Positions 1 through 48,103 of a stretch of 48,603 nucleotides of DNA are shown here, one piece after another (positions within the stretch are counted from its first letter, which is position 1; each line of letters starts with the position of its first letter). The notes under the pieces are model-generated. The model saw nothing but the letters and a program-made list of their open reading frames with translations. It was not told where the DNA came from and ran no database searches. The stretch covers positions 1 to 48,603 of the forward strand of contig JADGJG010000083.1 in assembly GCA_027596195.1 (NCBI GenBank), read 5' to 3'. The translations under genes were made by a program, and so were the position numbers. The stretch is from Podochytrium sp. JEL0797. Taxonomy: Eukaryota > Chytridiomycota > Chytridiomycetes > Chytridiales > Chytriomycetaceae.

Positions 1-2
1 AA

Positions 3-2712: not shown

Positions 2713-2790
2713 TAAATGCATGGCAGCGCCGACCGGACAAGACGCAGAAGGAGACTGCCAAGTGCAACGGCCCCAACCCTATTCCAATGC
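2713..2790 (+). pseudogene. Remnant of a first exon homologous to the gene at 28.3-28.5 kb
   Basis: The plus strand reads WQRRPDKTQKETAKCNG, closely matching CQRRLGKTQNETAKGNG encoded on the minus strand at about 28350-28410; about 43 of 53 bases agree by eye. A stop follows shortly after. It lies upstream of and divergent from the F-box/LRR relic, exactly as the intact exon does at 28 kb, so it marks the far edge of one duplicated block. The cysteine at the start of the motif is tryptophan here, so the presumed metal site is lost. Confidence 0.6.
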
Positions 2791-2985
2791 ACTGACAACG
2801 AATTGCGAAGCAGTAAGTAAAGAGAAAGTAAATGGGGTATTTCTGTTGACGATAACCTTTGTCGTCAAATCAAAAAGCACTTATGGAAAGCAAACGAGCG
2901 CGTCAGCCCATCGAGAGAGAATTTTATGATTTGATTTTGTTTTTGTTTTGTTCGGACTCGATTCTTTTTTCGGCGAAAACGACGC

Positions 2986-5238
2986 ATGGGTGAGCCACGC
3001 TCATGCACGCCTCGCACACACTCACACTCACACTCACCGCCCCAGGACACTCCGACTCTGATCCGTACGACTTTGAAGCGACAAAGAAAGGTGACTTCTT
3101 TTGCCCTCGCTTCACTGCCTGCTTCTTCTACTGCGGCGCACTACTCACTCTGCCGCAGCCCCGACTCGCCTCGCAGACCGCATGGCCACAAAGGCGCCCA
3201 CGCCAGGCACAGCGAAAAAGAAACTCACCACCAAGCCCGTCGTCCCCTGGTCCACGAAGGCTGACAAGGCCAGCAAGCCCAAGGAAACTCATTCCGCTCC
3301 TGGCACAACCACAACCACAAAGCAGAACAAACCCAATCATGCCAACACGGCTACAAACCACCCACCAACTACTACCACTACAGCCGCAAAGAAACCCAGC
3401 CGCGCTTCGACGAGAAATCCCAAGGAAAAACAACACGTGCTGCCCAAGCACGCCGTCTCCCCAACACGCGAAACTCCGATCTTCGACGATGCGAGTCCTT
3501 TTGTTTCGAAGCACAAGGTCGATCGCGGTGCGCAGGATCCCGGTAACAACTCTCGTTGTGCGTGATCGTGCGAACGCACTCAAAAAATCAACAGACAACA
3601 CGTTCCAATACAAGTTCTCTGACGACGAGGGAGAAGGCGATCAAGATCTCGATACCCGCAACAAAACCAACGGCACAACGCGTCCTTCCAAACCCGTGCC
3701 TTCTGCCACAATCAAACCAACCAAGGCCGCGACACCCCTTCAAAAACGTTCCGTTACGCCTTCTCTCGCCACTTCTGTTTCGAGTGGACTGGAGGACGAG
3801 GATCCAGACAAGACGATCGTGGTCGCCGATCGCGGAGAATACAAGGAGGGCGGCAGAGAGGACAACCTTGATGAAGAGGAATGGCTCAAGGATGTACCAA
3901 GGTTTGTGTGGTTTTTGGATACAAATATCCTCCTTTGGGGTTTCCTCGTGTTTTTGCTCGAATCCCTTACCAACATTTTCGCAAACACTCAGACCAACCG
4001 CCCGTCGCCCAAAGGACCCACAACACGTCAACTCCGATCTCGACGACCAGCGCTTGAGCGAGGACGATGATGCCGCTCACGACTACGATTTCTCGGACTG
4101 TAGCTCCATTGACCTGTCCCCGCCGACGGCTGCCAAATCCACCAAGACGACACGCCGCGCGCCTCCAAAAACAGCCGAGACGTCTCCCAGACGCGTTGCT
4201 GCTGGTCGTCGCAAGCCCGTTGCTGCTGCCAAGACTGTTTCGAAGCGTTCCGGTGGGGGTGGTGCGAGTGCTGGCACTCGTGGTCGCGGACGCGGGAGCA
4301 AGGCTGTCGAGGGTGTGGAAGCGGAGGAGATGGAATTCATGTCCGGCGACGAGGAAGAGGCTGCGCCCAAGACGACGGCCAAGATGGGCAGAAAGCGCTC
4401 CGAGAGTGCATCCAAAGCGGGTGGTGGGGGCTCGCGACGCGTCGCAAAGGACGATTCGATGGATTTTGAGAACGAGTTGATGGAACAGATTGAAAAGGTG
4501 AGAGAGCTCCTTTTTGTTACTGTGTGTGGGTCTCCAGCGCTATCTGACTTTCCTTTCTTTTTCGACGGCAAAAAAGGCGACCGCGTTCTTTGCAAGCTTT
4601 GAAAACGAGTGGTAAAAACTTGCATCACGCGTTTCTCTCCGCTCAACTCCTTGCCCTTGCGCGCATTTTTGCCTACTGATGCAACGCACTCATTTTCCAG
4701 TCAACAAGCCGTCAAATCCGAATTCCAACCCCTCGACCGCCTCCTCCACCACCAAAGTTGAGTTATCACCCCCCCACGGATCTCTTTCCGTCCCCACTCA
4801 CAACAGTCCAAATCACCACAAAAACAGAACAATCAATCCCCAAAGTCCGTCGCGAAGAGTCCAAAATGTTGAAAGGGTTCCGCGAATCCATTGACACGTT
4901 CCAAGAGTTGGCGCATACGAAACGTGAACAGATGCGGTTGTTTGTGCGGGAGACGGAGGAAACGTGTTTGTATTTCTTGTATTTTTTGAGGGTGGTTTCT
5001 TAATCGGAATTTGGGTGGGATCCACGCGCGTTGAAACTATTCCTCTCCCTCAAAAAACATACACACACACACACATGAAAAAACTCCAGTCTCGCAAAGC
5101 AAGACTGGACTCGATACGTTGATTGGCAAGATGCATGCCCGCAAGCGCGCGGTGCTCGAACAGACGCGTGGGAAGGTGGAGGACGAGTTTGCGACGAGTT
5201 TGGTCAGGAAGGTGATGGAGGATTTGAATGACTTGTGA
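2986..5238 (+). CDS. Basic low-complexity protein with C-terminal coiled coil (hypothetical)
   Basis: Best model: nine exons, 2986-2989, 3046-3090, 3177-3542, 3595-3901, 3993-4497, 4577-4611, 4701-4756, 4807-4965 and 5090-5238. The sum is 1626 nt (541 aa) and stays in frame throughout. Residues 1-130 are Lys/Thr/Pro-rich, followed by acidic and Ser-rich patches (FSDDEGEGDQD, LDEEEWLKD) and an Arg/Gly stretch (GTRGRGRGSK) before RKRSESASK. From about residue 400 the protein becomes helical: FENELMEQIEKATAFFASF, RREESKMLKGFRESIDTF, AHTKREQMRLFVRETEET, KMHARKRAVLEQTRGKVEDE. This looks like a nuclear or chromosome-bound protein with a dimerising tail, perhaps of a chromosome-axis type, but I recognise no family. 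An in-frame alternative acceptor at 3158 would add six residues. Intron 8 holds a short AC repeat (about 5059-5075). Confidence 0.65.
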
Positions 5239-5489
5239 TTTTGTTTTGTTTTGTTTTTTTGTTTCTCTTTCTTTCGGGGATTTGGGTTGTTTTTCTCCGT
5301 TTGTTTTGCTGTTCTTTTGACTTTTTGTTGCAATTACAACTATTCGCGTTTGCAAGCTCCCTCTCTTTCTGACCTTAAGGTTGATATGGGCTGGATGGAG
5401 CTGTCAAAACCCTTTCTATGGCGGCCGAGACAAGGGTGTGTCACAGAAAGGAGCAATTCAATCCATCGTTTTAGCAAAAATGAGTCTCC

Positions 5490-5692
5490 GCAAACTAACC
5501 AAAAGTTACTTAAACTCTAAAACTTGGCTTCAAATTCACCAGCCAACGCATCCTAGCGCAAGTCAAGAGTCTCCAGTTCACCAAATTGAAACAGCAGTTT
5601 AGGAATTTAAGCTTCCCGTACTCGGCTCGCAATGGCCCACCAATATCTCTGTATGGAATAGACTTCCTCAACCCGTCAGATTCGAGGTGCAA
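5490..5692 (-). pseudogene. LRR gene fragment, frame-shifted
   Basis: On the minus strand, GGPLRAEYGKLKFL continues, after a shift of one frame, into LETLDLR, an in-frame stop, and DALAGEFEAKF. This is the L-x-x-L-x-L and N-x-L-x-G-x-x-P rhythm of LRR units in damaged form. It is separate from the better preserved LRR relic just to the right and may be part of the same dead gene. Confidence 0.45.
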
Positions 5693-5853
5693 CCCCCTTC
5701 GGCTGTTGACACATCATTGAATGATCTCCATATTTGCACGCAACTGGCGGCATAAAATCGTAAAGCATTGGAAAAGAATCCGCGAATCAATAGCAAATGT
5801 AAACATTTATGGAGAATTTTAGATGATCATTCCCCCATTTCCACTTTAGTTCC

Positions 5854-6300
5854 TCAAATCGAAAAGTCCACACCGTCACGGAAAGCAAACGGGCATGTCA
5901 GCCCTTGATTCTCATTAAAAAGCGCTCCCGACAGCTCCCTCAAATCCCCAAGCTCGATGGGAACTTCTCCCGTCAATGCGTTCTCTTCCACCCATAGCAT
6001 CTCCAATTTCACCAACCTCCCAAATTCGCGAGGAATGTGACCGGTCAACGAACAGTTTCCAGGTGACAAGTAGAGTAGACAAGTGAGATTGCTCAGCTCC
6101 ACAGGCAATGGACCCCCAAGATTCGGATTGTTACCAAGGCGAAGAGAAGCCAGCTTGGAGCACTGTGCGAGTTCCAAAGGAATGCCCGCCTGACAGTTGG
6201 TTTCGGTGGAGAGAAAGCGCCATCAGCTTGCCCAACTTGCCGATACTCTCGGGGATAGGAGCCCTCGAGAGAGTTGGATCCCAAATCCAGCCAAGAGAGA
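5854..6300 (-). pseudogene. Decayed LRR gene copy
   Basis: An uninterrupted stretch 6177-5854 reads MELAQCSKLASLRLGNN, then LGGPLPVELSNLTCLLYL, GHIPREFGRLVKLEML, GEVPIELGDLREL and ends PFAFRDGVDFSI. It aligns along its whole length with the C-terminal half of the LRR frame at 29063-29387 (ending RGDVEFSI). Upstream, repeat units (VSLSWLDLGSNSLEGSYP) occur in another frame at about 6300-6240, so a frameshift or deletion separates them, and no F-box is seen. The 324-nt ORF could still be translated, but without the front end it is best called a relic. Confidence 0.7.
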
Positions 6301-10662: not shown

Positions 10663-10721
10663 ATTCTCTTTCTTTCTCATTCATTTAGATAGAATAAAGC
10701 TATTTTTTGCCAAATTGTGTT

Positions 10722-10915
10722 ACGCGAACGCCCCCGCGGCTCCAACACTTGATATGGAATTACGCAATGGCTTGTCCTTGAGCGACGCAGTGTCCCTGAA
10801 GCATTTGCACCACTTTTCGGGGTCGCGTTTCGTAAGGATGACTTTTGCATTGGGATGCTTGGCCATGAGCTCTTTAGAATACGCTGTGGGGAATGGGTTG
10901 TATTGTACCTTTAAA
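10722..10915 (-). pseudogene. Fragment of a P-loop sulfotransferase-family gene
   Basis: The minus strand reads YNPFPTAYSKELMAKHP then NAKVILTKRDPEKWCKCF, the central signature of the fungal/animal Sulfotransfer family (normally YPNAKVILTxRDPExW, part of the PAPS-binding region). The frame ends soon after at 10720. No P-loop and no C-terminal domain are found on either side. It abuts the 3' end of the chitinase in convergent orientation. Confidence 0.55.
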
Positions 10916-10919
10916 AAAA

Positions 10920-12014
10920 TCCTGCCACGAACCTGCTGAATATACCCCTTCCCCCTCCCCCCTGAAATGGTTGATTCTCTTCTCCACGCTTTCTCCTTCC
11001 GACATTCCTGTAATGCCAATATCGAAAAAACCTTAATACAAGAATATTTTGGTAAATTCGACCAGCAGGAGACTGAGGCTTTGCAGCAAGGTGACCCCCA
11101 CTCCGATTAGCCTGATCTTTCACTCACTTCAAGATTATAAGCCACCGCAGCCGTCCCTGCTTGCACCACCTCGCGGACCTCAGAATCTCCAACAACACGT
11201 ACACACGAATGAAAATCTACTTGTTGAAAGATGAGAAAGCCTACTTGTTGAAAGATGGGAAACCAATGGTGGGTTTGAAGGAGAAGGAGAAGGAGGGAAT
11301 CGTTTTGGAACCCATTCGACAATAGGGCGCTGCTGATTCCGAATGGCAGAACAATCTGTGAGAAAAGAACAAATAAAACAATCCGAGTAACAAGAAACAC
11401 GTACGAACGAAAGAAAGTTTACGGGTTCAAACAAAATATCTCACACCAAACTATTGCCTGACACGTCGACGTTTATTTCAATTGCATAGACCGAAATATT
11501 CCTGCTACTCTGGGATTGACTGGGTTTCGCCTTTGGATTTCCTTGACTTTGCCGTTTATCTCAACGTCAAACACAATCATGCTACCACATTGCTTCTCCC
11601 TCTCTAGTCTCTGTTTGGCATCAGATAGCTATCCTTGTGGAAAATCAAATTACCAGGCAAGCCAATTTTTTGAAATGCTTTGCCAAGAAACTCCAAGAAA
11701 TAGAGAGCGCGACACATTATTTTAGAAAATTCTGCCAGTTTACCACTCATTCGGTATTGTAGAGAATGGTTAAGGGAAAGCCGTAATGTCCTTCGCTTTT
11801 AATTCGCGTTGCCGAGCGCCAATCTGTTCCATTCTTGCGACGCATCGCCCAATGGGAACCGTAAGTGTTGCGAGGATTGTTCTTTTGAAATTGACGTCCA
11901 CTCCCCTCCCAAAACGGCAAAACTCGCCTAAAACCGCTAAATGACAGCACGTGCGGGAAAGGCTTGTGTCAGGCTCGTGACCGCACAAAAAATTGTTCGA
12001 AAAACTCCCGGACG
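10920..12014. other. Intergenic, no gene recognised
   Basis: Several short ORFs occur on both strands, but none shows family similarity or plausible splicing. A 24-bp direct repeat (core CTACTTGTTGAAAGATG) is present in two adjacent copies at about 11217-11263. The right end must hold the promoter of the membrane-protein gene starting near 12015. Confidence 0.55.
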
Positions 12015-12904
12015 ATGCCGTTTCCCAAGTTTCCCGTGAGTGACCCCCCTTGTGGTCCTCTACCCTCTATCACTTCATGAGCACCTCTTAACTGTGTGAA
12101 TCCACTGTGGCCTTGTCGGCTGGTTCTGTGCATGTCGCGGAGACCAAAATCATTTTTTGAGTGGCTTGTTCGACCGGGGGCATTTCGAGTTGATTCACGT
12201 CTGACAGTCATGCAGCAGTTTCCTTGTCACCTATACAAGATTAATTCACCCTCAAATCCTCACAGAGCCTCCAAGAAATCCGTGATGCCAAGCCTCTCCC
12301 GCAAGGCGCCGGCCAGCAACCCGGCATGCCCACCGAGCCCATCGCGCGTGGCCGCCCCCTGTCGACCTATATCCCCATCTACCTCGTCGTCATCCCCATC
12401 CTGTTTATTGTAGCCGTTGCGTATAGCAGTTACTCGCACAGCCGACTCGGTCTCCCCCTTTTCTCGCCCGATGTCATCTTTTCCATCGTGGAGCTCGTCA
12501 TCATGATTGGATTCAACGCGCTCGGATTCAGTGCCGTGAGACACATGATTCCCGAGTACATGTCGGTCTTCATTTACTTTTACATCATTAATGCCGGGGT
12601 CAAGATGGCGTGGTCCGCGGTGTACGCGTTTGTGCTGTTTCGGCAGGAGCTCCCCACGGTCATCAATGGAAAGGCCGTCGTGCTCGATCAGAGCTTAATT
12701 TCTCAAGTGTTGTTGACGACTTTTTTGATTTCCACAGTCATGACGCTTTTGTACACGTGGTGGATTGTGGTGAGAATGTTTATTCCGTTTAGGGAGTATG
12801 CGTTGGCGTGTAGGAAGGTGTTGGAAGGTGGGAATGACCTAAGTGAAAATGCGACTGCTGCTCCTGTGTATGCGGAAGTGACGGTTGGCAAAGTAACCGC
12901 ATGA
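12015..12904 (+). CDS. Four-helix membrane protein, unknown function
   Basis: Modelled as two exons: 12015-12035 (MPFPKFP, followed by a GTGAGT donor) and 12266-12904, giving 219 aa in frame. If the short first exon is wrong, the Met at 12326 gives 192 aa. Four hydrophobic segments are visible: YIPIYLVVIPILFIVAVAY, VIFSIVELVIMIGFNALGF, MSVFIYFYIINAGVKMAW and LLTTFLISTVMTLLYTWW. A short C-terminal tail (RKVLEGGNDLSENATAAP) follows. The layout recalls MARVEL-like or tetraspan proteins, but no diagnostic residues are seen. The protein at 25587-26553 has a similar four-helix plan without clear sequence similarity. Confidence 0.65.
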
Positions 12905-14453: not shown

Positions 14454-15352
14454 ATGAATTCCCAACGCTGGACCTGCAGCGAATGCGACGACGTCTTCAC
14501 CCGCCACTATAGCCTTGTGCGACATCAGCGCCGCTTTCATCCATTCCCTGAAATCCCAATTGAAGCCATCGAGGATTCTGAGGATGAGGAGAGAGAAACG
14601 ATGGACGCCGGCGACGAGAGCGTGCCATCCGATCGCGACTCCATGGACGTTCCATTCGACAATTCGTCCACACTTCCTGCAGTGCCGCACGTCAACGATT
14701 CGAACAAACACAGATTGAGTGACGATGATTCCGCCAACGATGTAGCGACGCCGGGTTCGAATGAATTCAAGCTCGATGTTGCCGACTTTGAAGAGGATGC
14801 AGCCGACCAAATATTCGCTCTTCTCACCGATATGAGCGCGAAAATCTCGGAACTTTACGCCGCTGAGGTTGAGCGTGCTCGTGTTCATGAAGCTCCCCAC
14901 GGTGAACCTCGTCTTCCAAAAGATTGGCAAAGTATTGGTTGTCATGCGGTGAAAGAGAGCAGCATGTCGTTGGCTTCCACCGCGTTTGGTTACAAAAAGT
15001 TTGACCTCGAGGCTACACTCGTGAGTAATTTGACACTTTTTTTTGTCAAATGCGACCTCAACAGATGCCTTCATTGCAGCGCAAGACTCCCGAGTCGTTC
15101 CAAGCTCTCTTCAAGGCGCTCCGCATGAATTCGACGCAAAGAATCGGGTTTACAGAGTTCCGCGCTTCCCCGAAAATTGGGGCAATTATTGGCAGTGAAT
15201 TTGATGACTGGTTGGTTGTATTTGCGCGGGAATGGCCGGGGTGGGTGCCGATGCCTTTCGAACCCTCCCACCAAATTTTTGGTGGCTGCGGTTCGGCATG
15301 CACCCCCACCAATGAATCATTTTTTATTTTCCCGAAAAAAAACAAAACATGA
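14454..15352 (+). CDS. Single C2H2 zinc-finger protein, unknown role
   Basis: Exon 1 14454-15020 encodes an N-terminal C2H2 finger (WTCSECDDVFTRHYSLVRH, then QRRFH) and a long acidic region with Asp/Glu and Ser. A helical segment follows, DAADQIFALLTDMSAKISEL. Donor GTGAGT at 15021 and an acceptor at 15064 (or 15079, in frame, five residues shorter) lead to exon 2, which stays open to 15352; total 284 aa. One finger plus a large acidic domain suggests an accessory nuclear factor rather than a classical DNA binder; function unknown. The 3' end is odd: the TGA at 15350-15352 overlaps the ATG of the next gene (15349), and the last 25 codons cover that gene's promoter element. A missed intron near the end, or a shorter true C-terminus, is possible. 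Confidence 0.65.
15276..15289 (+). promoter_or_regulatory. Shared upstream element of two GNAT genes, copy 1
   Basis: TTTTTGGTGGCTGC ends 60 bp upstream of the ATG at 15349. The same 14 bases lie 47 bp upstream of the paralogue at 18521. The surrounding spacers are not otherwise alike, so this may be a retained core promoter or regulatory element. Confidence 0.5.
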
Positions 15353-15951
15353 ACCCGTTCACCAAAACACTTTCGACGCCGCGACTCCGCCTTGTCCCAC
15401 TTGTGCGCAACCACCGACTCGGCACTGAAGCGGAGCTCAAGGAGATTGGCGCTGCGCTGCGCTGGGCCGCCGACGAGTCCACGCCCGAAGATGCCCAGTT
15501 GCGGTGGGCGATGGCCAAGGACGGTGCCTTCATCGGCGTCGTTGAACTCGATGCTGCCACGCCAGGCGACGCCGAGGACATGGACGACGACGACCACCTC
15601 AGCCTCGACAGCGCTGCCTCATCACCGCTCCTGTCGCCGCTCTCAGCGCCGAGCGCCGTCCTCAAAGTCAGAATCAACAAGGACTTTGCGGGTTTCGGAT
15701 ACTCAACAGAGTCCGTCAAGGCCCTGCTACTCCACCTCTTCAACGAAAACACTTCCAACGTATCGCGTGTCCACTCCGTCTTCTCGACAACGTATCCCGA
15801 AAAGGCAAAGGCCGAGAACGCCATGGAACGTCTCGGATTCTCAATCACAGAACAAGTCTCGCCGAGTATGCGCAGGGATGGAACCGCCGTAGAAGGGTGG
15901 ACCGTGTGGGAGATTGAGCGTGATGGCTTTATGGAGCTGTGGGCATCTTGA
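15349..15951 (+). CDS. GNAT N-acetyltransferase, array member 1
   Basis: Intronless, 200 aa. The array pattern is clear: N-terminal LSTPRLRLVPL, a segment ending LRWAADESTPED, an ID-type strand AFIGVVELDAA, an acidic/Ser-rich insert (about residues 72-102), then the acetyl-CoA segment VLKVRINKDFAGFGYSTES (motif A, G-F-G-Y) followed by VKALLLHLF, an AENAMERLGFSITEQ helix and strand, and the family ending GWTVWEIERDGFMELW. It should acetylate an amine from acetyl-CoA; the substrate is not predictable. It retains the region that members 2 and 3 have lost. Its ATG overlaps the stop of the zinc-finger gene. Confidence 0.85.
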   Translation: MNPFTKTLSTPRLRLVPLVRNHRLGTEAELKEIGAALRWAADESTPEDAQLRWAMAKDGAFIGVVELDAATPGDAEDMDDDDHLSLDSAASSPLLSPLSAPSAVLKVRINKDFAGFGYSTESVKALLLHLFNENTSNVSRVHSVFSTTYPEKAKAENAMERLGFSITEQVSPSMRRDGTAVEGWTVWEIERDGFMELWAS

Positions 15952-16410
15952 ACTGCTCTTTTTGGCATTTTGTCCGTCTGTTGTTATTAGCTGGCCTTCT
16001 TTTTTATTCCCCATCTTTATTGCTCTGTGTATGCTCTGTGTTGATCGTAGAACACCCCTCTTCCCTCTTCTTAGCTCGTCTCTGTATTCTTTGAATTTTC
16101 CGATACCTCTCTCTTGCTGTTTGCGCACAATAAATCAGAATTTTTTTGATTTCTATCGATATTTCATTACTAGGATTGATCGATAAGATGTAGTATCTCT
16201 CATATGCAAAATCAATAACGAAAATGAATTAATGATTTTTTTCAAAATTGGCAATCAAATAAATACAAAATTTTAATTATCGACGCAGAAATTAATTGCC
16301 GTCAGCTGATCGCGGCAGAAACAGCAATCAACAGCAGAAAGTGGCGTGCCACCCCCACCAGCCTCCCGGCGTATTTCAGCTGCTTTGCGCCAGAAATCGA
16401 TCGTCCCAAG
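15952..16410. other. Intergenic spacer within the GNAT array
   Basis: T-rich 3' flank of member 1 followed by AT-rich sequence (about 16170-16290) and the promoter of member 2. No coding signal. The TTTTTGGTGGCTGC element found upstream of members 1 and 4 is absent here. Confidence 0.6.
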
Positions 16411-17016
16411 ATGAACCCCCAATCAAAAGCTTTGACAACACCGAGATTGCGACTGTTGCCGCTTCACGACCAGGAGTCCGGCAGCTCCAATTGCTTGACC
16501 TGGTCCATGACAAAGGACTCGCGATCGATTGGATCCCTTCAAGTTGAACTCCAAGCCAATAATGTCCATACCACTACACCGATCGCAAAACCAGTCTCCT
16601 TTGTGAATGAAGCGCGGCCACTCCCCACTCCCTGCTCATCCCCACGTTCATCCAACGCAATCAAGAGCATCTCGAGTCCATCCAGTTGCGTCTCTCGATC
16701 CGCTCCCCACACGGCTTTCCTGACTGTCAACATCGATCCAACCTGCACCGGAAACGGATACAGCACCGAAGCCGCCCGAGCAGTCCTCATGCACGTTTTC
16801 ACGAGTACCGAATCGAGTGTGGTGCGAGTGCAATCTGTGCTTGGAAACACGTGTCCGAGCAAGATTTTGGCCGAAGCCGTACTCGAGCGAATTGGGTTCA
16901 CCGTAATGCAGCACGTTTCTGCGAGCAGAAGTCGGGATGGAATGGTGGTGGAAGGATGGACGGTGTGGGAAATTGAGCGAGATGGGTTCAGAGAACGGTG
17001 GTGTTCTTCATTCTGA
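16411..17016 (+). CDS. GNAT N-acetyltransferase, array member 2 (shortened N-lobe)
   Basis: Intronless, 201 aa, very similar to member 3. It opens with LTTPRLRLLPL, but the stretch between that strand and the SRSIGSLQVEL strand is only about 25 residues, where members 1 and 4 have 45-60 including the RWAADE-type helix. A Ser/Pro-rich insert separates the lobes. Motif A is NIDPTCTGNGYSTEAARAVL, followed by LAEAVLERIGFTVMQHV and GWTVWEIERDGFRERW. Cysteines at the VLGNTCPSK loop and the SRSRDG stretch, where others have SMRRDG, differ from its sisters. It may be active with altered substrate binding, or may be in early decay. Confidence 0.8.
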   Translation: MNPQSKALTTPRLRLLPLHDQESGSSNCLTWSMTKDSRSIGSLQVELQANNVHTTTPIAKPVSFVNEARPLPTPCSSPRSSNAIKSISSPSSCVSRSAPHTAFLTVNIDPTCTGNGYSTEAARAVLMHVFTSTESSVVRVQSVLGNTCPSKILAEAVLERIGFTVMQHVSASRSRDGMVVEGWTVWEIERDGFRERWCSSF

Positions 17017-17269
17017 GAAGAAGACAAATTTCCCTTCCGTTTATTGGCTAGCTATGAAAGACACTTTCCTTTATCTATTTTTGATTAAAGGGGAAGGGAG
17101 ACGAACTTCGGACAAAAATCGCACTCTTTGAATCTTCGAATTATGTAGATATTTGTTACTGTCTCTCATTGAAATCATTGCTGGAAAACTCCACATTTCT
17201 AATGTAATGACATTTTAAATAGTGTGTCTTTCGAAGACTCACACTTGAAGTGGGAGTGATCCTCAAAAA

Positions 17270-17860
17270 ATGAGCCCGCAATCCCAAGCTTTGACAACAC
17301 CAAGATTGCGACTGTTTCCTCTGGAAGATCAGGAGCACGGCACCACCATTTTGACCTGGGCCATAACAATGGACTCGCGATCCATTGGAACCATTCAACT
17401 TGAACTCCGACCCGACAATGCCGATGCCACCACACCAATGACCAAACCAGCCGCTTTTGTGAATGCGCAGCCACGCCTTCCCACTCCTTCCTCATCTCCA
17501 AGTTCATCCAACGAGAACCTCTCGAGTCCATCCAGTTGCGGCTCTCGAACCGCTCCCCACACGGCTTTCCTGACTGTCAACGTTGATCCAACCAGTACCG
17601 GAAACGGATACAGCACCGAAGCTGCGAGAGCCGTCCTCATGCACGTTTTCACTAATCCCGAATCGAGTGTCGTGCGAGTGAACTCCGTGTTTCGAGACAC
17701 GTATCCAAACAAGATTTTGGCTGAAGCCGTGCTCGAGCGAATCGGGTTTACCATCACGGAGGACGTTTCTGCGAGCATGCGGCGGGATGGGGTGGTAGTG
17801 GATGGATGGACGGTGTGGGAGATTGAGCGAGATGGGTTCAGAGAAAGGTGGTGTTCATAG
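17270..17860 (+). CDS. GNAT N-acetyltransferase, array member 3 (shortened N-lobe)
   Basis: Intronless, 196 aa, the closest relative of member 2; long blocks such as GNGYSTEAARAVLMHVF and LAEAVLERIGFT are identical, so the duplication is recent. It shares member 2's short N-lobe (PRLRLFPLEDQEHGTTILTW) and the Ser-rich insert. It keeps the ancestral loop SASMRRDG and the VFRDTYPNK stretch that member 2 has changed. The ending is GWTVWEIERDGFRERW. The promoter spacer is only about 250 bp. Confidence 0.82.
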   Translation: MSPQSQALTTPRLRLFPLEDQEHGTTILTWAITMDSRSIGTIQLELRPDNADATTPMTKPAAFVNAQPRLPTPSSSPSSSNENLSSPSSCGSRTAPHTAFLTVNVDPTSTGNGYSTEAARAVLMHVFTNPESSVVRVNSVFRDTYPNKILAEAVLERIGFTITEDVSASMRRDGVVVDGWTVWEIERDGFRERWCS

Positions 17861-18457
17861 ATGATTCTAAATGCTTCTTTCTTTGAAATTTCAGCCTGAC
17901 GAAGTTGGGGGAGGGTGTTTATGGGAAGTTCAATTTCGGACAAAAATCGCACTCTCCGGGATATGAGCTGGCACTTTCGAAAGCAATTATATAACAAATG
18001 CATACAATGAAATATCGCTTCCTCTTTTCCAGCGCTTTTCCGGTAAGGGTTTTATAGACAACCAAAAAACTATAATGCCAAAACAAATCAATCACAATTT
18101 ACTCTTGAAAACAAGATCAGAAGAATCTCTTTAGAGAGTTTAAATGCATTGCGCTTAATTTCTCAACCGTGGTCCTATCAATTTGCTTTCTCGCCGATAA
18201 CACTGGTTTTATCCGTTGCTCGTTGTTGCATTCCCAATCCTCTCGAGAAAAACCTCAATTTTATCTAATGCGGACCCCTCAAAGTAATTCATTCATGAAA
18301 TTCTCTAAAAGTTATTTATTGGAGATTCATTGGTGACCGCCAAACATTGACTCATGCTGTCAAGAGCAATGACGTCATTGCTCATGTGCATTCATTTTCA
18401 CGCTTACTGGTGGCTGGAAACGAAAGTGGTCCAAGCCCAGCAAAGCCCTTGTGGCCA
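17861..18457. other. Intergenic spacer, no gene recognised
   Basis: An AT-rich spacer between array members 3 and 4 with no coding signal on either strand. The only other item is the direct echo GACAAAAATCGCACTC at about 17939-17954, which also occurs at 17112-17127 downstream of member 2. The 3' flanks were therefore co-duplicated with these genes. Confidence 0.55.
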
Positions 18458-18460
18458 TTT

Positions 18461-18474
18461 TTTTTGGTGGCTGC
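18461..18474 (+). promoter_or_regulatory. Shared upstream element of two GNAT genes, copy 2
   Basis: TTTTTGGTGGCTGC, identical to 15276-15289, ends 47 bp upstream of the ATG at 18521 and is extended by three further T on its left. Confidence 0.5.
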
Positions 18475-18520
18475 AAAGCAGCCTAAAACCGCGTTGTTAC
18501 CGTTTCTTTGATTCACAAAA

Positions 18521-19216
18521 ATGAAACCGTATTCCGCCATTCTCGCGACTCCACGCCTTCATCTCGTACCTCTCGTCCTCAACTTTCGCTACGGCCCGGA
18601 ATGGGAACTCAACTGCATCGTCGCGGCACTGAAATGGGCTGCCGACGCGACCCCGCACATGAACGAAGACGAACAAGAAAACGCCACCACGCGGCAACGC
18701 TGGGCCATTCGTCACGAATCCGCGCGATTCATTGGAATCGTTGAACTCGTGCGTGCTTGTCCAGACGACCGTCTTCCCAGCGTGGAGGAAGAGGAAGGAA
18801 TCGAGGAGTCACCACTCTCAAGCGGCATATCTACCCCGCGTTTGAAATCCACAGGATCGGCGGGCGGATCGTCCCCGTTATCCTCGTCTCCCACTGGCGC
18901 GTGTTCCATTGGCACTTGCGTCCTCCTTAAAGTTAGGATTGACGCGGACCAGGCCGGAAACGGGTACAGCACTGAAGCGGCCAGGTCGGTGCTGATGCAT
19001 GTCTTCAACCACGCCGATTCGAGTGTGACCAAAGTCCAGTCCGTGTTCACGACGGCGTATCCACACAAGAAAACAGCCGAGGCGGTGATGGAGAGACTAG
19101 GGTTCTGTGTTACTGAGCAGGTATCGCCGAGTATGAGACGTAATGGGACGGCGGTGGATGGGTGGACTGTTTGGGAGGTGGATCGGGATGGTTTCATGGA
19201 GCTTTGGGGATCGTGA
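18521..19216 (+). CDS. GNAT N-acetyltransferase, array member 4
   Basis: Intronless, 231 aa, the longest array member. It has the full N-lobe (LATPRLHLVPLVLNFRYG, then LKWAADATPHM and TTRQRWAIRHESARFIG). A long Ser/Gly-rich insert follows (about residues 85-140, with VEEEEGIEESPLSSG). Motif A is IDADQAGNGYSTEAARSVL, then a TAYPHKKTAEAVMERLGF helix and GWTVWEVDRDGFMELW. Length and intact motifs suggest an active enzyme. With member 1 it shares the full N-lobe and the upstream TTTTTGGTGGCTGC element, so these two look like the older lineage of the array. Confidence 0.85.
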   Translation: MKPYSAILATPRLHLVPLVLNFRYGPEWELNCIVAALKWAADATPHMNEDEQENATTRQRWAIRHESARFIGIVELVRACPDDRLPSVEEEEGIEESPLSSGISTPRLKSTGSAGGSSPLSSSPTGACSIGTCVLLKVRIDADQAGNGYSTEAARSVLMHVFNHADSSVTKVQSVFTTAYPHKKTAEAVMERLGFCVTEQVSPSMRRNGTAVDGWTVWEVDRDGFMELWGS

Positions 19217-19451
19217 CTTGACGCGTTCTCTCATTCTTTCTTTATCGTTATAATAAGTATATTAATATCAGTGGAAAATACCAAATAAAAATAGCAGTGC
19301 ATCTAATTCTTGGGGAGGAAAAGAGAGAGGAAGTGGGCAAGCTGTACACGCTCCAAGGCAATCAAATTCAGCAATCAAAATTCAAATGCATTCCCATTAT
19401 TATATATATGTATCTTCTTTCTTGTACACGAGTCTTTACAATGCATCAACA

Positions 19452-20060
19452 CTACGACGTCCACAACTCTGCGAACGCGTTCCGCTCAATCACCCACACG
19501 GTTCCATTCCCAGCTTTGAGGTTACGGTCCTTTACAAACCCGATCCGTTCGAGAAGCGCCTCCGCACATTTTCTGTGAGGGTGTTGCGTTTGGACAGCCG
19601 ACTCAACACGTGTTGCTGTCGTCGAAGCGAACAAATGCCTCAACACGGCCTTGACGGCTTCGAACGAGAAGCCCTTTCCAATATGTCCTGGCGCCGTGAC
19701 GATTCGCAGCTGTAGACAGTCGGAGACATCGGCATGTAGCGTCGCGCAGCTCTGGCGGGTTTCTTCATCGAGCGGGTCATTGTCGGGTCGAAACGCTTCG
19801 ATCCCTGAAACCTCGACGACCCCGGCGTATTCCGTACGTGTTTTCCCCGGTTCGCTAAACACCCACGCGAGGTTCGAGGCGAAGACGGTGTGTCCGTGTG
19901 CTTCAGACATCCAAGCACGTGCCGATTCGGTTTCTTGCGCAAGACTCTTGTGGCTGTGTGTGTGGTCCTCTTGGTTGGGGGTGGAGATCGGAATGAGAAC
20001 GAGGCGGGGAGTGGTGAGGCGGGCATGGACTGGGAGTTGCTGCGGCGAAGACAGGCGCAT
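19452..20060 (-). CDS. GNAT N-acetyltransferase, array member 5 (opposite strand)
   Basis: Intronless, 202 aa from the Met at 20060 (MRLSSPQQLPVHARLTTPR); the frame is open to a Met at 20117. The later start is preferred because a TATAAAA at 20125-20119 sits about 60 bp upstream of it and only 2 bp from the earlier one. It has LTTPRLVLIPIS, a TEYAGVVEVSGIEAF strand, motif A TAPGHIGKGFSFEAVKAVL, AEALLERIGFVKDRN and the ending GTVWVIERNAFAELW. It lacks the Ser-rich insert in the same form and is the most divergent member, convergent with member 4. Confidence 0.82.
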   Translation of the reverse strand: MRLSSPQQLPVHARLTTPRLVLIPISTPNQEDHTHSHKSLAQETESARAWMSEAHGHTVFASNLAWVFSEPGKTRTEYAGVVEVSGIEAFRPDNDPLDEETRQSCATLHADVSDCLQLRIVTAPGHIGKGFSFEAVKAVLRHLFASTTATRVESAVQTQHPHRKCAEALLERIGFVKDRNLKAGNGTVWVIERNAFAELWTS

Positions 20061-20118
20061 CCGAGTTCCAATAATTTTTTTGTCAGACCAGGCAGGGGGG
20101 TGCTGGTGGCGAAACACG

Positions 20119-20125
20119 TTTTATA
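20119..20125 (-). promoter_or_regulatory. TATA box of GNAT array member 5
   Basis: TATAAAA on the minus strand, about 60 bp upstream of the preferred start codon at 20060. Transcription would then begin near 20090, inside the longer open frame, supporting the shorter protein. Confidence 0.45.
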
Positions 20126-22527: not shown

Positions 22528-24575
22528 TTACACGTCTTCGCCCTCCCCGCTCTTCCTCTTCAACCCCTTCATCTCATCCTTCACAAACAACGCACAGACA
22601 ATCACCAACCCCACCACAGGAACCAAACACAAAAACGCAATCCGAAACGCGTCGACAAACTCCCCCTTCAACAACCCCAACGCTTTTTCAGCTCCAGGAA
22701 CCCCACTCCCCACCAACCCCTTCAACACGGTCAGAGCAACAAGAGGCTGCGACAAGTCCTGCCCTTGTAGGCCCGGTAGACTTGCCAAGGTGGCGAGATA
22801 TGCCGATAAGGAAGAATTCGCAGCGACAGCATTCGAAAACAGATTGTTGAAAATGGTGCCAATAAGGGCGATCCCGAAAGCTCCGCCAAAGCCGAAGAAC
22901 ATGTTGGAAATTGCTGTGACTGAGGCAACTTGGAGAGGCTTGACAGAAGCTTGAACCCCAAGGATTCGGGTTTCTTCACGCGTGAACCAATGTAAAATGG
23001 GTTAGAAAAATTAACAATTTTAATGGCGTCTAAAAACTCACGCAGCAATGACCCTGTCCCAAGGCCAAACACAATTAAGTACACAATCTGCAGGGCAAGT
23101 GGCGTGGATTCCGAGAACATGGAGATCAAAAAAGCCCCGACAATCATGAGCACAGGGCCAACATAAAGGAATGGCACAAACGAGAGGAATTTTTGCACAT
23201 ATATTCCTGAAAGAATGGTCATCATAACAGCGGCAAGCGCGTTGGGGAGTTGCTGGAGTCCAGCAGCGGTGGGCGACATGTCATTGACGAATTGGAAGAA
23301 GAGCCTTTTTTTGGAAACGAACATATCCGCGTGAGACTCAATTTCCGAATGCGAACCATCAGCGAAGAATACGAAGAAAAATAGAGCACTCACGAAACAT
23401 AGTAAATGGCTGCAAAAAACCCTGCCGAAAACAGCAACGCCACAAGCAACAAAGGAAACACGCTTTGGTTCACAAACAACTCCAACGGGATCATCGGATG
23501 CTTGCTCCGCGTCTGCCACCAGATCGTAAACGCGATCAAAAACGGCGCGAGAGCAAAAGAGACAAGCACTTGCGCACTGTTCCACGCCCAGACTGTTCCT
23601 CCATTCTGAATCGGAAGCAAAAGCGCCGTCACTGTGGCCATGATGGCCGCGGTCCCAATCAAATCAATCTTGTTGAATTTCTGTAACAAGGTGCCCTCCG
23701 GGATCGGCATGTGTATGAACATGAAGACAGCAAGCAAGAAAGCACCGCCCGGGAGGTTGATGTAAAAGCACCACCGCCAGTTGAGCTTGTCACTGAGCAC
23801 TCCTCCAATCACAGGCCCTAGAATTGAGCCGACACCGAAAATGGCGCCAAAGATTCCCTGGTAGACACCTGTCGCGAAAACCGCGGGAAAAGCTGCGATC
23901 AGTGACCCCTTATCATGCAAAAATGGTGCCGCCGTGCTTTCGACTTGGCACGCAAAACGCGTGACCAATTTCGGAGATAATATCCCAACGCTCGCCCGCC
24001 ACTCACCTCTGTCTTTCAGGGACACGATATCCGATATCAAGATTGTAGACAAGGAGAAAAGACCCCCCACCCCAAATCCAGCGACAGCGCGGCTCGCAAT
24101 CAACATCTCGATAGACGTGGATGCTCCACACAAAGCCGATCCAATCAAAAACAATGCGATCGCAGCAAGGAAGGGATATTTGCGACCATAAACGTCTGCC
24201 AGCTTGCCATACTAAGATCTCGTGAGTAGGAAGATGGATCCTATCCAGGGGGACTTTTCCGGGGATCCAAAGTCATCAATGATCCTGGGAAGAGCGGAGG
24301 AGACGACGGTTCCATCAATTACGGCCAGCTGGGGTAAACAGTTGATCAGATAATCGGTGGTAACAGCAGAGAACACAAACCAGGAAGGCCGCACCCATGG
24401 AAATGAAAACCAAGGTGAATTGTAGCTTGGAAAGAGGGATCAAGATGATGTCGAGATCCTCCTCGGTAAGACCAGTGCTCTGTGCAGGCTCCTCCTGGGA
24501 AGGACCAGTGCTCTGGGCGGACTCCTCCTTGATAGGAGCTGTGATATCGGCAACAATAAAGGCGGGTTCGTTCAT
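22528..24575 (-). pseudogene. MFS drug:H+ antiporter-like transporter with an in-frame stop
   Basis: Five exons, 24575-24381, 24328-24007, 23868-23394, 23304-23042 and 22973-22528, sum to 1701 nt in one frame. The protein would be a 14-helix (DHA2-type) multidrug or polyamine exporter in the plasma membrane. Motifs: LAVIDGTVVSSALPRIIDD (motif D1), YGKLADVYGRKYP (motif A), ASRAVAGFGVGGLFSL, IFGVGSILGPVIGGVLSD (motif C), NWRWCFYINLPGG and QTRILGVQASVKPLQVA. A TAG at 24214-24212 interrupts it between SIFLLTRS and YGKLADVYG, where about five residues seen in relatives (AFQPL region) are also absent. All splice sites and the rest of the frame are intact, so the lesion is recent, a sequence error, or bypassed. 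The N-terminal tail has a short Glu/Ser/Gly tandem repeat (AQSTG twice). Confidence 0.75.
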
Positions 24576-35409: not shown

Positions 35410-37534
35410 CTATCCACGAGAGTTACTTCTATCGTGAACTTGTCTTGTGCCGCTCGAGTTTGCGCGACGACCGCGTTCCTCACGAACAGGCGAATGCGAA
35501 TCATCCCTCGCATTGCTCGAATGATCCATGTCCACGCGAGAAGGCCGCGAACGCATGCGTTCTCTGCTGTTTTCGGTCCTCGGTCGACGCGTCGACGAGC
35601 TAATCGAGGAAGTTTCCGCAGTTCTGGGACGGCGGCTGTTATTGCTTGCAGCTACAACTTCGTCCTGATCTCCGTGGTGGCGATGACGACTGCTGGCGCT
35701 GGAAGGAGCAACGTCTTCGTCTTGATCGTCTGTCTCGGCGGTTCTGGGACGACGAATGTTGGCACTGGAAACCGCGACATCATCGTCTTGCTCGTCCTCG
35801 TGGTAGCGAGAGTTGCCAGAAGGTGTCACCACCCGACTGGCTTGCGACGGACTACGCAGAGGAGCCACCTCCCGCGTTTGCGACGCGTTGCGACCCGTTC
35901 CACTGACTTGAGGAGTCTGCGCGCGCGTTTGCGAATCGGAGCGATCCGTTGCAACACGCGTCTGGGAAACGTTGCGACTCGTCCCGCTGCCCGTTTGAGG
36001 AGTCTGCGCTCGCGTTTGGGAACCGTCACGCACAATTGCGCTTCCTCGTCGGCTGCGTCCGTTGGCGCTTCCCGAAGTGTCAATCACGCTGATGCGACCA
36101 GTGGCGATTCCGGCCGCGTCAATCACGCTAAGTCGGTTGGTGGATTCGGTGGGGAGCACGTATGTGGCCTCACTCGCGGTAGAAACGTATTCCTTCGCGA
36201 TGTGAGCGTCCGAAGGAAGGGGTGGGGTGTGTCTGTCGATGGGTTTCGGGGCTTGTTCCGCGTACTTGTGGATATTGACAGCCTCGGACGCGGATTGGGA
36301 GCTCGACCGTTTTCTGGAATACGCGAATGCTCCAATGGCGAGAACCACGAAAGCACCGGCGGCGGCACCTCCGTAAAGGAGGGTGTTGGACTTTGCCGGC
36401 GGTGTCGTGGTTGTGTTGGAGGGGGAGGATCCTCCAGTGGACGGTGCATTGTTTGCATTGACGTTGATGGATCCACCGTTCGCAGGCGGGATGTTGCCAG
36501 CCGTTTGGTCAGAGTTTCCGGTCGCTTGGGCAACGCCAGCTGTTGCGGCGTCACCAGTAGTTGATCCATCCGAAGGAGTGTCATCAGGTGGTGGGGGAGC
36601 TTGTGGGGGCACAACGTTGCTTGGAGCGATAGGTGTGCCGTTCGCGTCGGCGCCAGAGCCGGCAGAAACAGGCGGTGGGGTGACTGGGGAAGCGGAAGCA
36701 GCAAAGAAACACTGTTGGATGGTGCAAGTTTTGCCGTCTGCGCTGAGAGACATTCCGGAACATGTTTCCCCGGTTTGGAGACGCGAGGTTGATGTACAAA
36801 AGCGCGTGCTTGTGCTGGGCTCTGCGTTCAAAATCGTCATGCTGATGCCAGAGAAGGTAACGGGAGACGTGACGACAGCTTGGTAGTATAGCTCGAGAAC
36901 AAGTTCCGCTCGGTTCTGAGCTTGTCCTTGCATATCGATGGAATACGTGACTTGGCAGCCGGAGGCCCCATTGACGCCGTTTCCCGGGCCCGAACAGGCC
37001 ACTCCTTGTCTCGTGACAGTCTGCACCCACACGGTTCCTTGCAGAACCATTGTCATCAAAAGGTTGTCTCCAGGCTGCACGTCCATCATATTTCCTCCCA
37101 GACATCCCTTGTGTCCAGCGACGGTTCCAGTGGGGTTCACATATTGCGCGGAAATGTGCCATCCTCGGTACACTGATACACCTTGAGGCTGATTTGGGGT
37201 GCATGCGGGACCGAATGTCAAGACGGGTTGCAAAACACCTGGTAGGAAGCAATCAGTTCCGCATCATCCCCCCAATTTGCAGGGATTTTTTGATCCCGAA
37301 CTCACCAAAGCCGATGGGGTTATAGTTCGTTGCCGCAGTATTGGTTTGCAGTCCAGGCCAGTAAAAGTACGTGGCATCCCCTGTTGCGGGCCTTGCAGGG
37401 ACGGGGGGGACGGTGAGGGTGGTGGTTAGGCTGGTGTATGAGTTGCCCTTGCCCAGCAGTGTCCAGTCGAACGCGGAGACCTGCGTGGCAGCCAGGAGGA
37501 CTGCCAGGAGGGATTGGATCGTATCGAGGCGCAT
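35410..37534 (-). CDS. Type I membrane protein with beta-sandwich-like ectodomain, surface protein 1
   Basis: Two exons, 37534-37306 and 37238-35410, 685 aa. The signal peptide is LLAVLLAATQVSA. The ectodomain (about 25-255) reads FDWTLLGKGNSYTSL, YFYWPGLQTNTAATNYNPIG, LQPVLTFGPACTPNQPQG, RGWHISAQYVNPTGTVAG, MMDVQPGDNLLMTMVLQG and WVQTVTRQGVACSGPG, with paired cysteines. This recalls concanavalin A-like or peptidase G1-like beta-sandwich proteins, but no catalytic pair is established. A Pro/Thr/Asn stalk (about 260-365), one helix (LLYGGAAAGAFVVLAIGAFA, then RKRSSS) and a 290-residue Ser/Arg-rich cytosolic tail with repeats (SQTRAQTPQ twice, RRPRTAET twice) follow. A role as surface sensor or adhesin is inferred. 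Its ectodomain is nearly the same as in the protein at 41304-43313. Confidence 0.8.
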
Positions 37535-37777
37535 TCGTTGCGGCAAGCGAGCAGGGGCCGACAACGGAAAAAGTCTGATTAAAATCGAGAAATGGAGATC
37601 TGCACACGAGGGAAATGGAATTTTTCGGAGTTCGACTGCTGTATCTTTGTGACGCGGTTGTGCGCGGATTTTAACTTTAATCGATGAGGTTAAATTGAGG
37701 GATCCTGACGGACCAGATTTTATTTTTTGACACGTGCTGCCATCGCCGTCCTCTGCATTTCGTTCCACGTTGCCTAC

Positions 37778-40794: not shown

Positions 40795-41303
40795 CCAAAC
40801 ATGACCCTCCCTCCCCCCCGCCTCTCTTCTGAACTATATTCTTCACCTTCTCGCGCGACTCACCCACCTCAACCGCATTCGGCCTTGCTGCCTCCTCAAC
40901 CAAAAATCCCCCCTTTCTTTCTGTTTACACCTTGAGGCATACCAAGATCATAAAAATCAGAGAGATATGGATGTTTGGAAGTTTTGGACATGTGGCACTG
41001 GCTGCTTAGCACGGTTTTGAACGTTCGTGAGCAGGAAACTTCGGTGAGGGGATCATCAAGAGCACGGTTTCCAAATATTTTTTCCGCCGTCCCCATTCAG
41101 CAGAGCCCCCAACCACCTCCCTTCTCTGCTCCACAGCAAAAAGCTTGGCAGTCACTTTCTCTCTCGCTCGCCTATTCCGTCACTATTTCGTAAGACGCGA
41201 AACAAATGATTTCAAGACACGATCCGGAACGAAATTTTCATGTCGATTCGCCATGCGACGCCCAAATCTGAAACGAACTTTTCAGTTCCCAAATATTGTT
41301 TCA

Positions 41304-43313
41304 ATGTCTCCAACCATGCTTGCATCCATTCTCATCCTGCTGGCAACAGAGGCTGCCGCTTTCGATTGGACACTACTGGGTCCTGGAAATGCATATACCT
41401 CCTTGATCACCACCCTCACCGTTCCTCCGGTCCCTGCCAAACCTGCAACAGGGGATGCCACATACTTTTACTGGCCTGGGTTGCAAACCAACACTGCGGC
41501 CACCAACTATAACCCCATTGGATTCGGTATGTTGCAGATGGGCTTTTTTGTTGTGGTATCACACACTCACCAGCAAACCCCCCATTCGAATTCCAGGCGT
41601 CTTGCAACCGGTGTTGACATTCGGTCCCGCATGTACCCCGAACCAACCCGCCGGTGTATCAGTGTACCGAGGGTGGCACGTTTCCGCGCAATATGTGAAC
41701 CCAAGTGGAACGGTGGCTGGGCACACCGGGTGTTTGGGTGGAAACATGATGGATGTGCAACCTGGAGACAATTTGGTTATGTCTATGGTTCTGCAAGGAA
41801 CCGTGTGGGTGCAGACCGTCACGAGACAAGGAGTGGCTTGTTCGGGTCCGGGAAGCGGCGTCAGCGCCGCAGGGGGGTGCCAAGTCACGTATTCGATTGA
41901 TATGCAAGGGCAAGCGCAGAACCGAGCGGAACTCGTTCTCGAACTCTACTATCAGGCCGTGATCACGAGCAACGTTGTGTTCTCCGGGATTTCAATGACG
42001 ATTTTGAACAAGGAGCCTGTGAGCAGTTTGCGGTTTTGCACCCCGAGCTCGCGGTTGCAAGCGACTGAGACTTGTACGGGAATGTTGTTGAGTGCGGATG
42101 GAAAGACTTGCACGATTCAGCAATGTTTGTTCACGGCGCCAGCGATTCGTAAGTGTTTTTTGATTTCCCACACACACAGAAGGAGGATTTCTAACCCCTT
42201 TTTTTTATAGCTGTCGCTCCAGCTCCAGTTTCAAACGCATCCTCTGGATTGGACGGAAACGGCACCCCAATCAACCCGGCAGCCGTCATTCCAGCTCTGC
42301 CGCCAGCTGACACGTCCACATCGCCCGTTGACACCTCTCCACCCAGTTCCCTCAGCAATGGTGGTTCCACAGGTGGATCCGAGCCACTCGTCAACGTTGG
42401 CCCTGTTACTTCTCCCTCCTCTGGCGCGACTTCGACTACTTCGACTACTTCAAATTCCAACTGGTTGACTTCAGCCATCTCATCCCTCACCCCAAGCGTT
42501 TCAACCACCAATGGACCATCGTCAACCACTGGAAATACTTCTCTTACTGGAAGCACAGTTACTGGAAGCACGGTTAGTGGAAGCACGATATCGCCCGGCA
42601 ACGGGAGCGTCGTCGAAGCCGTAGCCCCCGCCGCTGCATCCGCTCCTCCAGCTTCGTCCTCCAAATCTGTGATTTACGGAGTCGTGGGAGCCGCGGCAGT
42701 CGCCCTTGTGATTGGTGGACTCGTCTTCATGCGCATGCGAGCCAAGAAGGCCGCCCCTGCCATGACTGTGCACGAGTTTGCATCAGACCCAGCCAAAGAC
42801 GCAACTTGGAACGGCACCCCACCACCACCAGCCCCCCTCACGGCAAGCAACGAAGACAAGATCAAAATGTACAACACGATGCCAGTTGCATACCCCCTCA
42901 TCCAAGAAAGGCCCACGAGCAACGTATTCATTCCGCCGCGTAGCCAGCTCCGCAGTGCCACAAGTGACGAGTCGTTGGAGAGTTTCAGTGGAAGCACAGT
43001 TGTGGGAGATTCATCGCGTGCGATGGAGTTGAGCAGTTCGAATGGAGTTGGAGTTGTGAATATTCCTCAGAGGAGCGATATCGGGAGGGCTATGAGAAGG
43101 GTGGACGCCGATGCGAGCGCCACAGGGCGGCCGTTGAGTACTGTATCGCCGCACTTGCTTGCTCCCAGGCCGTTGAGCCATGTTGCGGGTCCTCACGCGT
43201 CTTCCAATTCTCGTCGAGCGAGTTCGAGTGAGAGGCGCAGGAGTGTGACGGCTGGGGTGAGCGAACGCGGGTCGTCGAGGAAAGGGAGCCACAGCGGTGT
43301 GACGGAAGAATAA
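41304..43313 (+). CDS. Type I membrane protein with beta-sandwich-like ectodomain, surface protein 2
   Basis: Three exons, 41304-41526, 41597-42148 and 42211-43313, 625 aa. Signal peptide MLASILILLATEAAA. The ectodomain (to about residue 255) is nearly the same as in the protein at 35410-37534: FDWTLLGPGNAYTSL, YFYWPGLQTNTAATNYNPIG, LQPVLTFGPACTPNQPAG, MMDVQPGDNLVMSMVLQG. Then come a Ser/Thr/Gly-rich stalk with a GST-type repeat (LTGSTVTGSTVSGSTI), one helix (VIYGVVGAAAVALVIGGLVF) and a 190-residue basic, Ser-rich tail not alignable with that of surface protein 1. Intron 1 is at the same codon in both (after PIGF-G); the second intron here, at the ectodomain-stalk border, is unique. A conserved outer domain with free evolution of stalk and tail suggests ectodomain-specific selection. 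Confidence 0.8.
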
Positions 43314-46761: not shown

Positions 46762-47944
<1,183 letters not shown>

Positions 47945-48007
47945 TCAGTGATGTGGTTGTTGCAGTGTTTTGACCCACCCCGGTTCCCTTTTCTCTTTTT
48001 TTTGCTT

Positions 48008-48091
48008 GTACGCGCGGGTGCCTTTTAACTCTTGGGCTGAGATCATACCGTTGCTACCCGATCACGGTAATTCGTGCGAGGGGATTCGTGC
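48008..48091 (+). promoter_or_regulatory. TPP riboswitch aptamer (THI box) in the THI4 3' flank
   Basis: The order of conserved elements matches the TPP aptamer. P1 is GTACG (48008-48012) with CGTGC (48087-48091). GGGTGC is at 48016-48021, and P2 can close as GGT with ACC (48047-48049). The pyrimidine-sensing J3-2 strand CTGAGA is at 48037-48042, followed by ATACC. The pyrophosphate arm has ACCCGATC (48056-48063), P5 CACG-GTAATT-CGTG (48063-48076) and GCGAGGGG (48076-48083), with P4 closing CCC to GGG. P3 is short and weakly paired. It lies 64 nt past the THI4 stop and 7 nt before AATAAA. Read by eye only; no covariance score was computed. Confidence 0.82.
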
Positions 48092-48097
48092 AATCGC

Positions 48098-48103
48098 AAT
48101 AAA
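48098..48103 (+). terminator. Candidate polyadenylation signal of THI4
   Basis: AATAAA inside an A-rich run directly after the aptamer. If used, the riboswitch lies inside the 3' UTR, and ligand binding could influence 3'-end choice. Confidence 0.5.

Follow-up and report, generated by a model that had tools for sequence, protein, structure and literature searches.

We report that TPP aptamers in the chytrid Podochytrium sp. JEL0797 (Chytridiomycota, Chytridiales, Chytriomycetaceae) stand at the 3' ends of genes: the copies share the aptamer fold, with covariation in its helices, and all seven of them (six intact and one degenerate) follow the stop codon of either a thiamine gene or a transporter gene. 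Our best reading is that they are 3'-UTR TPP riboswitches and form a set spanning most of this fungus's thiamine pathway. A location in 3' UTRs is very probable. The further reading that the set acts on 3'-end formation (cleavage/polyadenylation) is evenly balanced in our judgment, and as parts of it we infer TPP binding, an effect on 3' ends, and the direction of the response. Aptamers at the 3' end, often next to the signal at which the message is terminated, suggest a different mode of riboswitch action in fungi.

The window that we analyzed is the whole of contig C812 (48,603 bases), from a genome of 24.4 Mb in 995 contigs. Its THI4 gene lies on the forward strand and consists of three exons (46762–46968, 47075–47294, and 47376–47944) separated by introns at 46969–47074 and 47295–47375; the splice joins give a 331-aa protein with a Thi4 domain (PF01946, E 4e-101 in Pfam), ending at a TGA stop at 47942–47944. 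In a protein search, the product was identical to a deposited Podochytrium sp. JEL0797 protein, and the next-best matches after Podochytrium were two longer entries (551–556 aa, 57% identity), one of them labelled Hirondellea gigas. The product is also 84–86% identical to three chytrid proteins (P0004–P0006). The position of the stop codon is supported by the C-terminus ..GIVVA, which is common to the THI4 proteins of two Chytriomycetaceae, Rhizoclosmatium globosum and Chytriomyces sp. MP71 (P0004, P0005). A ten-residue motif in exon 3 carries the cysteine that we take as the donor of sulphur in fungal THI4. Contamination at this locus is ruled out by the introns, the Podochytrium deposit, and the identity to chytrid proteins, and the host is an early-diverging fungus, as a preliminary description of this DNA had supposed. 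Elsewhere in the window, five GNAT acetyltransferase-like genes (Acetyltransf_3; four on the forward strand and one on the reverse, one of the five slightly under the Pfam cut-off) are clustered at 15316–20120, and a sixth lies at 307–1026 on the reverse strand. Two similar genes in opposite orientation (35410–37777, reverse; 41031–43313, forward) encode proteins that both contain AFDWTLLG.GN.YTSL.TTLTVPPVPA, and a Pfam search with two pieces of this gene pair gave no match.

Beyond the THI4 stop, a 61-nt spacer with a T-rich tract at its end (47945–48005) leads into P1 of a full-length match to the RF00059 model at 48004–48102 on the forward strand (covariance model positions 1–105). The match begins 60 nt 3' of the stop and its conserved core 71 nt 3' of it. 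It scores 53.3 bits, with an E-value of 1e-9 in a 501-base stretch and 9.7e-8 in the entire window, one bit short of the RF00059 gathering cut-off of 54.3. A scan of the window at the gathering threshold lists nothing for that reason, the cut-off being a threshold of curation and no biological feature. The preliminary description had claimed an ordered TPP-aptamer signature here and had proposed scoring it with RF00059; every motif that it named is in place, and the model aligns from end to end. By helix and motif searches, the forward strand carries the P1 5' arm TTGTACG (48006–48012), the pyrimidine-sensing loop CTGAGA (48037–48042; kept in all seven genome copies), the P4-P5 arm with the GATC/GCG internal loop that forms the pyrophosphate sensor (48056–48083; intact in six of the seven), and the P1 3' arm CGTGCAA (48087–48093). 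Within the P4-P5 arm are ACCC-GATC (48056–48063), the P5 helix CACG/CGTG closing GTAATT (48063–48066 and 48073–48076), and GCGAGGGG (48076–48083). The ligand-contacting CUGAGA and GAUC/GCG internal loop are thus all present, and a 10-position gap in the alignment takes the place of the P3b hairpin. AATAAA, a hexamer like a poly(A) signal, follows 4 nt past P1 at 48098–48103, so that the element sits where it had been described, 3' of the stop of a fungal THI4 and directly 5' of AATAAA. We regard it as almost certainly a real TPP aptamer, and TPP binding by this and the other intact aptamers is predicted.

A scan of the genome with RF00059 (E ≤ 1e-3; 49 of 719 first-look candidates scored) yielded six intact aptamers, two of them above the 54.3 cut-off. 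On the same strand as the gene in each case, they follow the stop codons of genes for an MFS metabolite/H+ symporter-like protein (contig C983, 55.5 bits), NMT1/THI5 (C223, 54.5 bits), THI4 (C812, 53.3 bits), THI6 with ThiE and ThiM domains (C9, 51.8 bits), THI20 with ThiD and TenA domains (C279, 51.7 bits), and an SSF transporter that we call SSF-1 (C575, 39.6 bits), at stop-to-core distances of 27–87 nt. Because all six genome matches come after thiamine genes or transporters, the match at THI4 is more than chance. Among the relatives of SSF-1 is a chytrid protein that carries the label urea active transporter. The DUR31-clade SSF transporters of Candida transport thiamine, according to the available part of one report (PMC5997356), and SSF-1 is a candidate member of that clade. 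The evidence for conservation consists of copies within one genome, that of Podochytrium sp. JEL0797.

The seventh copy, which is degenerate, comes after another SSF gene (SSF-2) on the reverse strand of contig C789 (L042, positions 10700–12285 of the contig, with the aptamer at 795–888 of L042) and begins 49 nt past the SSF-2 stop. It scores 32.6 bits against RF00059 and 48.1 bits (E 1.4e-10) against a model derived from the intact six. CTGAGA is kept; the pyrophosphate-sensing loop is altered, since GATC reads TTC and GCG reads GGT. Neither AATAAA nor ATTAAA follows this copy within 250 nt. Either a relic or a changed specificity would fit, and we treat the copy as a natural negative control. 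As the genome scan with RF00059 missed it, more degenerate copies may exist. A P4/P5 pattern built from the six intact copies matched those six at zero mismatches and three more genome sites at three mismatches; against model R1, the latter scored 12.9 bits and 9.5 bits, with one unlisted. The pattern GGCTGAGA..ACCGT has 12 genome sites, six of which are known copies (C9, C279, C575, C789, C812, and C983; the NMT1 copy lacks the first G of the pattern), and a match to it alone means little because a reversed control pattern gives 14 matches. Among the six other sites, one scored 12.1 bits and five were unlisted at E ≤ 5, and RF00059 matched none at E ≤ 1. The second pattern search recovered five intact copies and the C789 copy, and the two pattern searches for further degenerate copies added none. 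A pattern match on viral contig L030, whose genes look phage-like by eye and in which RF00059 finds nothing at E ≤ 1, was set aside as chance; a protein scan of the viral contigs for relatives gave nothing.

The other thiamine genes that we sought in the genome were found. Thiamine pyrophosphokinase (PF04263) was not found in an exon-wise genome search, which may miss it. There is also a second NMT1/THI5-like gene (contig C371, at 21–824 of positions 1–6000), with AATAAA 13 nt past its stop; RF00059 does not match anywhere in the 6 kb that were scanned.

Comparison of the six intact copies supports the fold. P1 is 7 bp long in THI4, THI6, THI20, and MFS, 9 bp in NMT1, and 10 bp in SSF-1, with mononucleotide-shuffle p-values of 0.0122 (THI4), 0.0002 (NMT1), 0.0084 (THI6), 0.0026 (THI20), and 0.0014 (MFS), and 0 of 5000 shuffles for SSF-1. 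The inner 7 bp form standard pairs in 42 of 42 cases over the six loci, against a mean of 3.2 of 7 when arms are swapped between loci, a comparison biased toward own-arm pairing in that the P1 arms were picked as the best helix beside the core. The shuffle test is the fairer control for P1 because the same arm choice is applied in it. The pair type varies at all seven P1 positions, with both sides changed. Of 90 cells in the core, 96.7% are paired, both sides change in 4 of 15 pairs, and the covariation score is matched by 1 of 500 shuffles, for a structure taken from the Rfam fold and a small sample of six related sequences from one genome. Covariation supports P1, the P3 stub, P4, and P5; P2 changes on one side only.

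The start of AATAAA relative to the end of P1 is +4 in THI4, +1 in NMT1, +3 in THI6, –1 in THI20 (where P1 ends on the base with which the hexamer starts), and +15 in SSF-1. The hexamer therefore abuts or overlaps P1 in four of the seven copies, THI4 included, or four of the six intact ones; in the MFS locus, the stretch that runs from the stop to a point 250 nt beyond the core contains neither AATAAA nor ATTAAA. From a background of 74 AATAAA in 92,106 bases on both strands, the chance of four of six falling within 7 positions is ~9e-10, a figure to be read in the knowledge that the 7-position window was picked after the data had been seen and that 3' UTRs are likely enriched in AATAAA. An alternative estimate, by hand arithmetic with one AATAAA per gene placed evenly over 300 nt, is ~4e-6. 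Among 13 control genes (11 Pfam-supported frames, with GNAT3 under the Pfam cut-off, and two genes recognised by eye, one APRT-like and one SWEET-like), six have AATAAA within 300 nt past the stop, at 13–177 nt; other poly(A) signals may therefore be in frequent use in this chytrid.

We tentatively propose that the aptamers act on cleavage/polyadenylation; that they do so directly, across the whole pathway and without splicing, through a ligand-dependent helix locked against AAUAAA, is somewhat less probable than not. The RNA from the stop codon to the poly(A) signal would fold as a TPP aptamer, whose P1 in four of the intact six ends at or near AAUAAA. At low TPP, the aptamer would be unlocked and the machinery could reach AAUAAA, giving a normal stable mRNA. 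At high TPP, the ligand would bind and P1 would lock, and the rigid structure beside AAUAAA would impede cleavage; transcripts would then be extended or unpolyadenylated, expression would be lowered, and the feedback loop would be closed. In folding calculations, locking the aptamer costs 2.9 kcal/mol in THI4, 2.0 in NMT1, 6.9 in THI6, 8.9 in THI20, 3.2 in SSF-1, and 4.9 in MFS. The binding energy of TPP is about 10 kcal/mol, so the ligand could pay this cost and decide the fold.

How a locked P1 might impede cleavage can be narrowed by the predicted pairing of the hexamer. On locking, the probability that AAUAAA is unpaired drops from 0.81 to 0.33 in THI20, goes from 0.19 to 0.26 in THI4 and from 0.64 to 0.85 in THI6, and is almost unchanged in NMT1 and SSF-1; with longer flanks and P1 alone forced, it goes from 0.80 to 0.66 in NMT1, with the other loci similar. 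We therefore reject base-pair masking of AAUAAA as a general switch: only THI20 closes, THI4 is already paired, and THI6 opens. We likewise reject, as a general switch, an extended P1 in which a T-tract pairs with AAUAAA; it appears in the THI4 and THI20 folds and is kept as a local possibility, and against shuffles the T-tract/A-tract extension gives a fraction of 0.030 of 300 at THI4 (uncorrected) and 0.44–0.97 at the other five loci. Because adjacency is the common feature and masking is not general, we favour steric hindrance by the locked P1. Besides the lack of a general masking, other observations speak against the polyadenylation reading: the MFS and C789 copies have no AATAAA nearby, AATAAA is not universal among the control genes, and in Phaeodactylum, where the same idea was tested, no thiamine response was found, as far as the available text of that study goes (PMC9544697).

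Splicing is the main rival to the polyadenylation reading. TPP would here control alternative splicing in the 3' UTR, by which the poly(A) signal is either lost or retained, as in plant THIC; for the chytrid set we consider this unlikely. In its favour, a 3'-UTR TPP mechanism of this kind is characterised in plants (PMC10226581, available part), THI4 has two introns, and GTAAT occurs in the P5 loops of THI4, THI20, and SSF-1. The preliminary description had suggested that ligand could mask a splice donor, GTAATT, in the P5 loop; this motif is indeed in the THI4 loop, but a conserved donor is not, as GT stands in only three of the seven loops and is replaced by AT in NMT1, THI6, MFS, and SSF-2, and a donor masked in the P5 loop is out as a general mechanism. 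Between the stop codon and a point 250 nt beyond the core, donor-like sites are lacking in NMT1 and MFS, and those of the other four intact loci are unrelated to each other, in a scan that used a few hand-made patterns for donors only and that weak sites may escape.

TPP could also alter the stability, export, or translation of the mRNA through the 3' UTR while splicing and polyadenylation stay unchanged, a reading that we find distinctly unlikely. A mechanism independent of the hexamer would cover all copies, including the two of seven without a nearby AATAAA, but it leaves the abutment of AATAAA on P1 in four copies unexplained, and we know of no TPP riboswitch that acts through 3'-UTR stability, export, or translation alone. 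It is improbable that the aptamers are conserved yet unresponsive relics, as for the tested diatom THIC element. That precedent (PMC9544697, in the part available) and the C789 copy, which has lost its GATC and GCG residues, would fit such a history. However, six copies have kept their core residues while the P1 sequence has turned over and covaried with pairing kept, which suggests ongoing selection, and the decayed C789 copy displays what loss looks like. Least of all do we expect the aptamers to be 5' leaders of the next downstream genes, a very improbable reading that could draw on C279, where a second THI6-like gene without its own aptamer in the 5.5 kb scanned has its ATG on the same strand 254 nt past the THI20 stop, and on C812, which ends ~500 bases past the aptamer and so leaves a downstream gene out of view, but that is rejected for C983 and C223 because their next recognisable genes (Nas2 domain, E 7.6e-27, and GH76, E 7.2e-8) are on the opposite strand, and that also faces a long opposite-strand open frame of no assigned family next at C789 and an upstream thiamine gene or transporter in all seven copies. 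The second ThiE-ThiM (THI6-like) gene of C279 (L020) is placed at ~23936–24190 onward with the THI20 aptamer in between, and this aptamer may serve both genes.

The mechanism class would be new only if the polyadenylation reading is true. A fungus with this aptamer 3' of the stop codons of THI4, THI5, THI6, THI20, and transporters would show that the expression platform had been swapped across most of a pathway. The abutment of P1 on AAUAAA provides a natural multi-gene test of the idea that a metabolite by itself switches poly(A) site use, which failed in the one diatom in which it was tried, and the paralogous SSF-2 aptamer, without the residues of the pyrophosphate sensor, is a built-in negative control. 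In the surveyed literature, available in part, the 3'-UTR position has no precedent among fungi; a literature search on chytrid riboswitches returned none on the subject, and an earlier mention of fungal 3'-UTR elements is possible in a comparative study of fungal TPP riboswitches that reportedly appeared in Fungal Genetics and Biology in 2018. The primary papers on the plant THIC 3'-UTR TPP riboswitch date from 2007.

The four described types of fungal TPP riboswitch (I–IV) are all in 5' UTRs or introns in the available part of a 2018 survey (PMC5882874), and these four types recur in the available part of a survey from 2024 that covers 156 fungi (PMC11683625). The chytrid aptamers belong to the same family, with overlap in NMT1, THI4, and urea-type transporters (PMC5882874, available part); unlike types I–IV, all seven follow a stop codon. 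A 3'-UTR position is shared with TPP riboswitches of Micromonas and Aureococcus, found also after intron-less SSUA/THI5-like genes, but these are marine algae, and the available text names no pathway-wide THI4/THI6/THI20 set (PMC4260697). As in the plant THIC riboswitch (PMC10226581, available part), the aptamer lies 3' of the stop and 3'-end feedback is likely; the plant element works through a 3'-UTR splice, whereas the chytrid genes are different ones, and a scan of them with simple patterns brought up no donor that is conserved.

The 3'-UTR aptamers of diatoms are the nearest known system, judging from the available part of one report (PMC9544697). There, all TPP aptamers are described as located in 3' UTRs, with an A-rich P1 in which a poly(A) site is predicted; the proposal there was alternative polyadenylation, and a thiamine response was not found in Phaeodactylum. 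The diatom element has thus been tested and was unresponsive, whereas the function of the chytrid set is predicted from sequence. The two systems have in common the 3'-UTR position, the A-rich 3' side of P1, and a poly(A) hexamer at P1, and P2 begins GCGG in the diatoms (PMC9544697, same part) as it does in the THI4 and NMT1 copies. The chytrid set differs from that of diatoms in its fungal host, in its genes (THI4, THI5, THI6, THI20, and transporters), and in the AAUAAA that abuts P1 in four of them.
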